Below, one piece after another: positions 53,435-57,151 of a stretch of 62,210 nucleotides of DNA. How positions within the stretch are numbered: position 1 is the stretch's first letter; each line of letters opens with the position of its first letter. The stretch covers positions 1 through 62,210 of the forward strand of contig JAGRGB010000067.1 of NCBI GenBank assembly GCA_020445745.1, in the 5' to 3' direction. The notes beneath the pieces are model-generated. The model did no database searches. It was not told where the DNA came from and worked only from the letters and a program-made list of their open reading frames with translations. The position numbers and the translations under genes are program-made. Source of the stretch: Rhodocyclaceae bacterium (lineage in GTDB: Bacteria; Pseudomonadota; Gammaproteobacteria; Burkholderiales; Rhodocyclaceae).

Positions 53435-54562
53435 ATGCCCCAGATCGTCGTCATCGGTGCCGGCTTCGCCGGCCTCACCGCGATCCGCGAGATCCGCAAG
53501 CGCGACCGCGAGGTCGCCATCACGCTGGTGGCACCGCGCAAGCAGTTGCACTACCTGCCGGGCATCATCTGGATCCCGTCCGGGCTGCGCCGGCGCGAGG
53601 ACCTGGTCGTTCCGCTCGACCGTTTCCTCGAGCGCATGAACGTACGATTCCACGAAGCCCAAGTCACCGGCCTCGCCGATGGCGGCCGGCGGGTACTCAC
53701 CGATGCCGGCGAACTCGCCAACGACGCGCTGCTGATAGCCTGCGGCGGCCGATTCATCCGCAAGCTGCCCGGCATCGAGCACGCCGTCACGCCGTGCGAG
53801 GGCATCGCCGCCGGTGAGCGGATCCGCGACCGGCTGCGGGAAATGACCGGCGGCACGATCGCCGTCGGGTTCGCCGGCAATCCCCAGGAGCCCTCGGCCA
53901 TGCGTGGCGGACCGATGTTCGAGTTCCTGTTCGGCATCGATCGTCAGCTGCGACGCGAGGGTCGCCGCGAGCGCTTCGAGATGGTGTTCTTCAGTCCGGC
54001 CGAAAAACCCGGCAATCGGCTCGGGCCGCGCGCCGTCACCAGCCTGCTCGACGAAATGGGGCGGCGCGGCATCGCCACCCACCTCGGCCACAAGATGAAG
54101 GGGCTCGAGGCCGATCGGGTGCACACCGAGGGCGGCAGCATCGGCGCCGACCTGATCCTGTTCCAGCCCGGCATGACCGGAAACGCGTGGTTCGACGCCA
54201 CCGACCTGCCCCGCTCGCCCGGCGGTCTGGTCAGTGCCGACCGCCACTGCCGCGTCGCCGGTTTCGAACGGGTCTACGTGGCGGGAGACTCCGGCAGCTT
54301 TCCGGGCCCGGACTGGATGCCCAAGCAGGCCCACATGGCCGACCTGCAGGCCGCGGCCGCCGCCCGCAACATGCTCGCCGAGTTGAACGGCGAGCCGGCG
54401 GAAGCCACGTTCCGGACCGAACTGATGTGCATCGTCGACAGCCTCGATGCCGGCATGCTGGTCGCCCGCAGTGAGCGCCGCAACATCGTGCTGCCGTCAT
54501 CGCCGGTGTTCCACTGGATCAAGCGCGGTTTCGAGCGCGCCTACCTGCGCCGCTACCGGTAG
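53435..54562 (+). CDS. Sulfide:quinone oxidoreductase-like FAD flavoprotein
   Basis: The 375-residue flavoprotein has the FAD motif VVIGAGFAGLTAIREI at the N-terminus. A second region has FVYVAGDS-type sequence (VYVAGDSGSFPG near 285), and KQAHMADLQAAAAARN is typical of SQR-like enzymes. Cys occurs in TPCEGIA and LMCIVDS, possible redox residues, but the classical SQR Cys triad cannot be confirmed by eye. The substrate may be sulfide or an organic compound. The next gene is the halohydrin-dehalogenase-type SDR, 66 bp later. Confidence 0.8.
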   Translation: MPQIVVIGAGFAGLTAIREIRKRDREVAITLVAPRKQLHYLPGIIWIPSGLRRREDLVVPLDRFLERMNVRFHEAQVTGLADGGRRVLTDAGELANDALLIACGGRFIRKLPGIEHAVTPCEGIAAGERIRDRLREMTGGTIAVGFAGNPQEPSAMRGGPMFEFLFGIDRQLRREGRRERFEMVFFSPAEKPGNRLGPRAVTSLLDEMGRRGIATHLGHKMKGLEADRVHTEGGSIGADLILFQPGMTGNAWFDATDLPRSPGGLVSADRHCRVAGFERVYVAGDSGSFPGPDWMPKQAHMADLQAAAAARNMLAELNGEPAEATFRTELMCIVDSLDAGMLVARSERRNIVLPSSPVFHWIKRGFERAYLRRYR

Positions 54563-54628: not shown

Positions 54629-55303
54629 ATGGATCTGCAAGGCAGACGTGTACTGATCACCCAGGCGGACGCATTCATGGGCCCGGCGCTGTGCGAGGTG
54701 TTCGCCGAACAGGGCGCCGAGGTGATCGCCAGCACCGATGATCCGTCGCCCGCGGATGCGATGGCCGGCATCGTCGGCGCAGCCGGCGAGTTCGACACGC
54801 TGGTCGCCAACCTGGCCATCGCAGCGCCGACCACACCTGCCCTCGACGTCGGCGACGACGAATGGCGGCGGGTGTTCGCGATGCTTGTCGATCCGCTGCC
54901 GCGGCTGGTGCGCGCGGCGGTGCCCGGCATGATCGCCCGCGGCGGCGGCCGGATCCTAGTCATCGGCAGCGCCTCGGCACTGCGCGGCATTCGCCGTGCA
55001 TCGACCTACAGCGCGGCACGCGGCGCCCAGCTTGCCTACGTCCAGGCGGTCGGCGTCGAACTGGCGAGCCAAGGTATCCGGATCAACGCGATCGCCCAGA
55101 ACTTCGTCGACAACCCCACCTACTTCCCGCCCCAAGTCCAGCACGATCCCCGCTTCCGGCAACGGCTGGCCCGCGAGGTACCGCTCGGGCGCCTGGTCTC
55201 GGCGCGGGAGCAAGCGCATCTTGCCGCCTATCTGTGCAGCGACGCCGCCGACTGCTTCGTCGGCCAGGTGTTTCCGCTGTGCGGCGGCTGGGTGCAACGC
55301 TGA
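54629..55303 (+). CDS. Halohydrin dehalogenase-type SDR protein
   Basis: This 224-residue SDR lacks the cofactor glycine motif and carries both halohydrin-dehalogenase signatures. T-x4-F-x-G is at T11, F16, G18 (TQADAFMG). S-x12-Y-x3-R is at S114, Y127, R131 (YSAAR, with Arg where SDRs have Lys). The late PTYFPPQV and GQVFPLCGGW segments also fit. Known enzymes split vicinal haloalcohols to epoxides without NAD(P)H. By motif it would not be a normal dehydrogenase; activity is inferred. Length fits the family (about 225-260). Confidence 0.8.
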   Translation: MDLQGRRVLITQADAFMGPALCEVFAEQGAEVIASTDDPSPADAMAGIVGAAGEFDTLVANLAIAAPTTPALDVGDDEWRRVFAMLVDPLPRLVRAAVPGMIARGGGRILVIGSASALRGIRRASTYSAARGAQLAYVQAVGVELASQGIRINAIAQNFVDNPTYFPPQVQHDPRFRQRLAREVPLGRLVSAREQAHLAAYLCSDAADCFVGQVFPLCGGWVQR

Positions 55304-55324: not shown

Positions 55325-55900
55325 TCAGCGGCGCAGCAATCTGACCGCCTGCAGTGCGGCTGCGACGTTTTGCTCAGGCCCGAATCCCGAGATCGCCGCG
55401 GCGATGCGCCCGTCCGGTGCCACGACGAAGGTCGTCCGTTCCGTGAATCCGTGGCCGATCGCTTCGCCCCGGGTGTTGCGGTAGCCGGCGCCGCCGCTGC
55501 TGACGGCGAGATCGAAGGCCTCGGCGATGCGGCCATCCGCATCGGACACCACCGGGAACTTGCCGGCGCAATAATCCGGGTCGGCCGAGAAGGCCTGCAG
55601 GCGGTCGATGCCGTCCAGCGACACGCCGACCACGCTGGCGCCGGCCTCGGCGAAACGCTCGTGCTCGCGGGAGAATGCGCGGGCCTGGATGTTGCAGCCT
55701 GACGTATAGGCAGCCGGGTAGAAGTAGACGACGACGGCGCCATGGCGGCGCGCCGCGGTCAGATCGAATGCGATCTCCTTGCCGTCGAGGGCGGCAGCGC
55801 CCTCGAAATCGGGTGCAGCGGCTCCCACGGGTAGCGCGGCGCCGGCCGGCGCCGCAAGGCTGGCGGCCGCGAGCAGGGTGGCCAGGGTCTGTCGGGTCAT
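55325..55900 (-). CDS. Exported peroxiredoxin
   Basis: The 191-residue protein has a signal peptide (about 21 residues, ending PAGAAL) and an AhpC/TSA-type thioredoxin fold. It shows APDFEGAAALDG, the peroxidatic motif PAAYTSGC and GVSLDGIDRLQAF. It should detoxify peroxides in the periplasm. A further Cys lies in DPDYCAGKF. It is convergent with the SDR and divergent from the permease. The 201 bp upstream hold no gene. Confidence 0.88.
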   Translation of the reverse strand: MTRQTLATLLAAASLAAPAGAALPVGAAAPDFEGAAALDGKEIAFDLTAARRHGAVVVYFYPAAYTSGCNIQARAFSREHERFAEAGASVVGVSLDGIDRLQAFSADPDYCAGKFPVVSDADGRIAEAFDLAVSSGGAGYRNTRGEAIGHGFTERTTFVVAPDGRIAAAISGFGPEQNVAAALQAVRLLRR

Positions 55901-56101: not shown

Positions 56102-57151
56102 ATGGCAATGGGCGAACTGGTACGTCGACCCCAGAAGCTGCTGCCGTGGTGCCTTGCGGTGTCGCTCGGCGCCTCTGCATGGCTGCTTGCCTACACGCAC
56201 CTGACCGAGATCGCCGACGCGCTGCTGGCGGCGACCGGGCTGACGCGCGAGACCCGGCTGGGCGAAGCACTGCACTTCTTTCTGTACGACACGCCGAAGG
56301 TGCTGCTGCTGCTCACCGGCATCGTCTTCGTGATGGGCATCGTGCAAACCTTCTTCGCGCCGGAGCGCACGCGGGCGCTACTGTCGGGGCGGCGCGCCGG
56401 TGCCGGCAACGTGCTGGCGGCAATTCTCGGCATCGTCACGCCCTTCTGCTCGTGCTCGGCGGTACCACTGTTCATCGGCTTCCTGTCGGCAGGCGTGCCG
56501 CTGGGCGTGACCTTCTCGTTCCTGGTTTCGGCACCGATGGTCAACGAGGTGGCGCTGGTGCTGCTGCTCGGCATGTTCGGCTGGCAAGTGGCGGCGCTGT
56601 ACCTGGGGCTCGGGCTGGCGGTGGCGATCGTCGCCGGTCTGGTGATCGGGCACCTGCGCATGGAACGCCACCTCGAGGATTGGGTGCAGCAGATCCTCGC
56701 CGGCAAGCACACGAACCGGGGCACGGACGGACTCGACTGGGTGGCACGCTTCGAGGCCGGTGGCGCCCATGTGCGCGACATCGTCGGCCGCGTCTGGCCC
56801 TACGTGCTGGTCGGGATCGCGCTCGGCGCGGGCATCCACGGTTACGTGCCGGAGGATTTCATGGCGTCGTTCATGGGCCGCGACGCTTGGTGGGCAGTGC
56901 CGGCTGCGGTTGTGCTGGGCGTGCCGATGTACACCAACGCAGCGGGCATCATCCCGGTGGTAGAGGCGTTGATCGGCAAGGGCGCGGCGCTGGGCACGGT
57001 GCTGGCGTTCATGATGAGCGTGATCGCGCTGTCGGCACCGGAGATGATCATCCTGCGCAAGGCGCTGAAGCCGGCGCTGATAGCCAGCTTCGCCGGGATC
57101 GTGGCAGTCGGGATTCTGCTGGTCGGCTATGTCTTCAACCTGGTGCTGTGA
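56102..57151 (+). CDS. ArsP/YraQ-type permease
   Basis: The 349-residue membrane protein has about eight to ten helices and the DUF318 permease hallmark TPFCSCSAVPLFIGF near residue 118. FLVSAPMVNEVAL and the second-half VPMYTNAAGIIPVVEAL follow. Family members export organoarsenicals or transport thiosulfate-like compounds. The Cys pair in FCSCS is characteristic. The downstream mini-thioredoxin and the divergent peroxiredoxin suggest a redox link. The start may be 56102 or the ATG two codons later. Confidence 0.9.
   Translation: MAMGELVRRPQKLLPWCLAVSLGASAWLLAYTHLTEIADALLAATGLTRETRLGEALHFFLYDTPKVLLLLTGIVFVMGIVQTFFAPERTRALLSGRRAGAGNVLAAILGIVTPFCSCSAVPLFIGFLSAGVPLGVTFSFLVSAPMVNEVALVLLLGMFGWQVAALYLGLGLAVAIVAGLVIGHLRMERHLEDWVQQILAGKHTNRGTDGLDWVARFEAGGAHVRDIVGRVWPYVLVGIALGAGIHGYVPEDFMASFMGRDAWWAVPAAVVLGVPMYTNAAGIIPVVEALIGKGAALGTVLAFMMSVIALSAPEMIILRKALKPALIASFAGIVAVGILLVGYVFNLVL

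Follow-up and report, generated by a model that had tools for sequence, protein, structure and literature searches.

Halohydrin dehalogenases (HHDHs) are homotetramers that convert haloalcohols to epoxides and back and need no cofactor. They are recognized by two sequence motifs, T-x4-F/Y-x-G and S-x12-Y-x3-R, whose counterparts in SDR enzymes are T-G/A-x3-G/A-x-G and S-x10-14-Y-x3-K (PMC11976700; PMC4989007, section 5). Section 5 of the latter review recounts that 37 database genes were selected by the motif pair and that activity was confirmed for the 19 chosen from them. The same section names HheD to HheD38, of which HheD to HheD6 are verified, and gives the putative HheD19 to HheD38 as 57 to 95% identical to the verified members. 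PDB entry 7b73 is named as the halohydrin dehalogenase HheD2 in PMC9629495, and PMC5892878 treats the structure of HheD2 as well; relatives of HheD12 are mentioned across marine Pseudomonas (PMC6922532).

The window analyzed here is the whole 62,210-nucleotide stretch of contig JAGRGB010000067.1 from a Rhodocyclaceae bacterium (assembly GCA_020445745.1). On its plus strand lies a 224-residue open reading frame (54629..55303) that, judged by its sequence, its best PDB relatives, and its place in a tree, very probably encodes a cofactor-free HHDH of the D type. The strand, length, and stop of the frame are those of the first-pass annotation, and both HHDH motifs are found at exactly the residues it had claimed. 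Motif 1 reads T11-QADA-F16-M-G18 (TQADAFMG; 54659..54682, plus strand) and sits where SDRs have their glycine-rich cofactor loop, and motif 2, S114-x12-Y127-xxx-R131 (54968..55021, plus strand), supplies the catalytic triad. A further segment, Q157-N158-F159 (55097..55105, plus strand), aligns with the SDR “PG” motif and, by analogy with the family, is a putative part of the nucleophile pocket. The two motifs occurred together by chance in 26 of 200,000 shuffles of the protein, and the pair is absent from each of the seven other SDR loci examined in the same genome, which represent six distinct proteins (L002 and L005 are the same frame) among 13 other matches there. When the window protein was aligned with 33 of the 80 D-type loci discussed below, Ser114, Tyr127, Arg131, Phe16, Gly18, Q157, and N158 were invariant in all 34 sequences and Thr11 was nearly so.

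A phmmer search of PDB sequences ranked 7b73 (HheD2) at the top with 308.8 bits, followed by 8xxb with 278.7 bits and the HheB entries 5b12 and 4zd6 with about 174 bits; the highest-ranking chain described as a 3-oxoacyl-ACP reductase scored 85.8 bits, more than 200 bits below HheD2. Pairwise identity to the window protein is 65.5% over 220 residues for 7b73, 59.2% for 8xxb, 43.6% for HheB, 35.6% for HheA2, 31.1% for Escherichia coli FabG, and 29.0% for HheC. Identity alone thus cannot tell HheC from FabG, and it is for this reason that the motifs matter. HheD2, which comes from a gammaproteobacterium, shares both motifs and, like the window protein, shows no C-terminal extension over the aligned region; the two differ by ordinary sequence divergence and in the class of the host. 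The 8xxb protein likewise has both motifs and falls among the D-type sequences, although it was deposited as an SDR, and it lies in a different D sub-branch from the window protein. HheB has both motifs as well but is of another subtype, with a Tyr in motif 1 where the window has Phe. HheC (1pwx) and the more similar HheA2 (1zmo) share the motifs and the triad, and HheC carries a C-terminal extension that the window protein lacks.

In an IQ-TREE analysis of 34 rows, rooted on the SDR rows and built from every sixth of 103 D-type-like loci plus four named ones (L112, whose frame is short at the N-terminal side, was left out), a 99/99 branch splits 27 HHDH or D-like rows from 7 SDR rows, a small sample made up of FabG and six of the 13 other matches of the window's genome, with HheG-type and other SDR families absent and several long end branches present. 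The window protein lies on the HHDH side, apart from FabG and from the six SDRs of its own genome, within a group of 12 D-type rows with 97/93 support. Only 18% of 200 bootstrap trees unite all D rows in one clade that leaves out HheB, which branches beside the deepest D rows (L109 and L111). The sequence search and the tree, the latter a check that the first-pass annotation had proposed, bear out its central claim of a halohydrin dehalogenase, as do the two motifs and the altered cofactor motifs described next. By its 65.5% identity to HheD2 and its place among the D rows, the predicted enzyme is of subtype D, an ordinary additional member of a known subtype from which one protein has already been produced and crystallized.

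We compared the former cofactor site in an alignment that set the window protein beside four named HHDHs, 8xxb, and six SDRs (FabG and five from the window's genome). Where the six SDRs have TGxxxGxG (the glycine-rich loop), NNAG, and PG, the window protein has TQADAFMG, VANLAI, and AQNFV; HheD2 has TQADTFMG, VINLAI, and AQNFV at the same three sites, and the window residues there resemble those of HheB, HheA2, and HheC as well. With these changes, the protein would be expected not to bind NAD(P)H. The chemistry that we infer for the enzyme is that of the HHDH family (PMC4989007, section 4), transferred residue by residue. Ser114 would hold the hydroxyl of a vicinal haloalcohol, and Tyr127, its pKa lowered by Arg131, would take the proton; the substrate oxygen would then attack the adjacent carbon and expel the halide, leaving an epoxide. 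The departing halide would enter an anion pocket at the former NAD(P)H site, formed by motif 1 with Phe16 and probably by the loop of residues 157-159. In the reverse direction, an epoxide would be opened by halide, azide, cyanide, nitrite, or a comparable anion.

A scan of species genomes with probe peptides gave 498 matching stretches; some relative is encoded in 445, and the best 80 show 69 to 86% identity. By NCBI rank, the best 80 comprise 53 Betaproteobacteria, 11 Gammaproteobacteria, and 10 Pseudomonadota without a class; the remaining 6 are named as other phyla and may be mis-binned. Strains of Thauera, Zoogloea, and Marinobacter are among the carriers. Within the window's own family, a copy is found at E 1e-60 or better in 25 of 199 genomes and 15 of 68 genera, one per genome, a patchy distribution. 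Both motifs are intact in 99 of 104 D-type-like loci, a set in which some genomes are counted twice through two collections. Among the exceptions, the Thr of motif 1 is Ile in L010 (396-1067) and Leu in L021 (6001-6672), and the Phe is Leu in L055 (364-1017); L090, apparently a duplicate entry for the L010 gene, deviates as L010 does, and the L112 frame is truncated. PMC11976700 mentions two natural variants of the Thr; it also reports that in HheC and HheG only similar residues are tolerated there and that HheC allows more freedom at the aromatic position. Strict motif searches would overlook the variant genes of L010, L021, and L055.

Among 72,556 plasmid records, a relative at E 1e-40 turned up in a single one, and this relative is B-like; no D-type copy was found among them. 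This relative, WP_069709941.1 (L125:2989-3666, on pSA2, NZ_CP017077.1), is 54% identical to HheB, has motif 2 intact, and has Ser for Thr in motif 1. It is annotated as an SDR family oxidoreductase and so makes a second unrecognized HHDH-like gene. An EHN epoxide hydrolase gene (1793-2977) precedes it by 11 bases, and pSA2 is typed as conjugative. The classical pairing of an HHDH with an epoxide hydrolase therefore occurs in another type than that of the window.

The surroundings of the D-type genes are varied. Apart from the HHDH gene itself and frames that overlap or adjoin it, no neighbor is widely shared among the frames of the 80 loci plus the window, where clusters reach 6 loci at most; the loci differ in how much flanking sequence they include (813,970 bases across all 80, some of which end soon after the gene), genes were called heuristically as frames of at least 80 residues by third-position GC, and some called neighbors are shadow frames. 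Neighbors of many kinds were listed for 65 of the 81 sequences, the HHDH frame being unrecognized by pattern in the other 16. The largest clusters span 4 to 6 loci, for example, a leucine-degradation set: in L061, L066, and a few others, the D-type gene lies between genes of the methylcrotonyl-CoA carboxylase and HMG-CoA lyase types (families typed in L066 only). We take these clusters to be lineage synteny. As for epoxide hydrolases, a wider sequence pattern that passes its positive control matched six frames in the 80 loci, none of them epoxide-hydrolase-like by eye (one, in L041, is an alpha/beta hydrolase of the HGGPGG kind), and a tblastn search of the same loci with the pSA2 epoxide hydrolase gave no match at E 1e-5. 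In the window itself, an ArsP-type permease gene lies downstream (56102-57151; PF03773, with SaoE as the nearest NCBIfam model, below its cut-off). The permease gene is kept with the HHDH gene and an upstream flavoprotein gene in L009 and L010, where the peroxiredoxin gene that stands between HHDH and permease in the window (55325-55900, minus strand) was not found.

That the protein might instead be a normal SDR oxidoreductase whose cofactor site has degenerated is suggested by the standard models: Pfam matches only SDR families (adh_short_C2, 116 bits), and so does NCBIfam, with 189 matching models of which, among the matches listed, the best 25 all score below their own cut-offs. The first-pass annotation had foreseen that automatic annotation would say SDR, and it had called the dehalogenase hidden; the word is apt for the annotation, since the standard models miss the HHDH, but not for the subtype, since D is already in print (PMC4989007). 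The classical SDR signatures TGxxxGxG and YxxxK are absent, with TQADAFMG and YSAAR in their places, so that the triad Lys is Arg, and each of the three cofactor motifs is altered as in HHDHs. Together with the margin of HheD2 over the top-scoring 3-oxoacyl-ACP reductase chain and the separation from FabG and the SDRs of the same genome in the tree, this makes an ordinary SDR highly improbable, and we retain the D-type HHDH. A different question is whether this HHDH forms a two-gene operon with its upstream neighbor, for example, to open epoxides with sulfur nucleophiles that the neighbor would produce. The neighbor is an SQR-like FAD oxidoreductase of 375 residues (53435..54562, plus strand; PF07992, with NF049943 far below its cut-off at 83.3 versus 525 bits), which we place outside the system. 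The two genes share a strand, with 66 bases from stop to start, and two congeners of the window's genome retain the pair (L009 and L010, apparently G104 and G170 to judge by identity; in G170 the flavoprotein gene is interrupted by a contig break). In the other 78 of the 80 D-type loci, however, the flavoprotein was not detected, although 11 of the 80 hold fewer than 1,200 bases upstream, where a whole neighboring gene could be missed. In two further HHDH-bearing congeners, G049 and G194, it is elsewhere or absent. G049, G008, and G114 carry both genes but on different contigs, and the flanks of roughly 1.5 kb to each side of their HHDH genes (L096, L095, and L106) contain no flavoprotein. Of the 27 family genomes (out of 199) that carry the flavoprotein, 21 are without a D-type HHDH at E 1e-60; carriage is 6 of 25 in HHDH genomes versus 21 of 174 in the others (Fisher p 0.12; size-matched permutation p 0.38). 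The partnership that the first-pass annotation had raised is accordingly rejected on both synteny and co-occurrence, and such an operon seems to us very unlikely.

Alternatively, the enzyme could serve, as HheC does, as a catabolic dehalogenase in a pollutant pathway leading from haloalcohol to epoxide to diol. The first-pass annotation's remark that no other dehalogenation genes were present does not hold if taken genome-wide: a type II haloacid dehalogenase gene over the curated cut-off lies outside the window, on another contig of the same genome (G000:C126:23846-24433). Such genes over the cut-off are found in 17 of 25 HHDH genomes versus 70 of 174 others (Fisher p 0.010) and in 12 of 15 HHDH genera versus 25 of 53 others (p 0.038), as a catabolic role might lead one to expect. 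But HHDH genomes are larger (median of 4.6 versus 3.5 Mb), and the excess loses significance within size classes (17 versus 14.3 expected, p 0.12) and within genera (p 0.80); we therefore make no claim of a shared pathway. The epoxide hydrolase that the pathway would call for was not detected in the 80 loci, many of which have short flanks, and no limonene-type epoxide hydrolase was found in the window's genome; EHN epoxide hydrolases occur in 0 of 25 HHDH genomes versus 8 of 174 others (p 0.60), too rare to tell. The near absence of relatives from plasmids also weighs against this role, which we regard as rather unlikely, though well short of negligible.

A later paper gives the presumed role of HHDHs as detoxification and degradation of haloalcohols (PMC11536340), and the 2016 review notes that other functions cannot be excluded (PMC4989007). 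One such function, which we put forward tentatively and hold to be somewhat less probable still than pollutant catabolism, is that D-type HHDHs are chromosomal, stand-alone epoxide scavengers that would work physiologically in the reverse direction, with endogenous epoxides opened by anions plentiful in the cell (chloride, nitrite) rather than pollutants dehalogenated. This would fit the failure to detect an epoxide hydrolase partner, a widely shared neighbor, or a D-type plasmid copy. HHDHs find use in the synthesis of chiral epoxides and substituted alcohols; further D-type sequences such as this one widen the choice of enzymes. For the biology of the family, a patchy gene with no widely shared neighbor and no epoxide hydrolase detected at its side in 80 loci sharpens the question of natural role; our guess is that, in the cell, the enzyme most likely works alone and with low specificity, clearing haloalcohols or epoxides.
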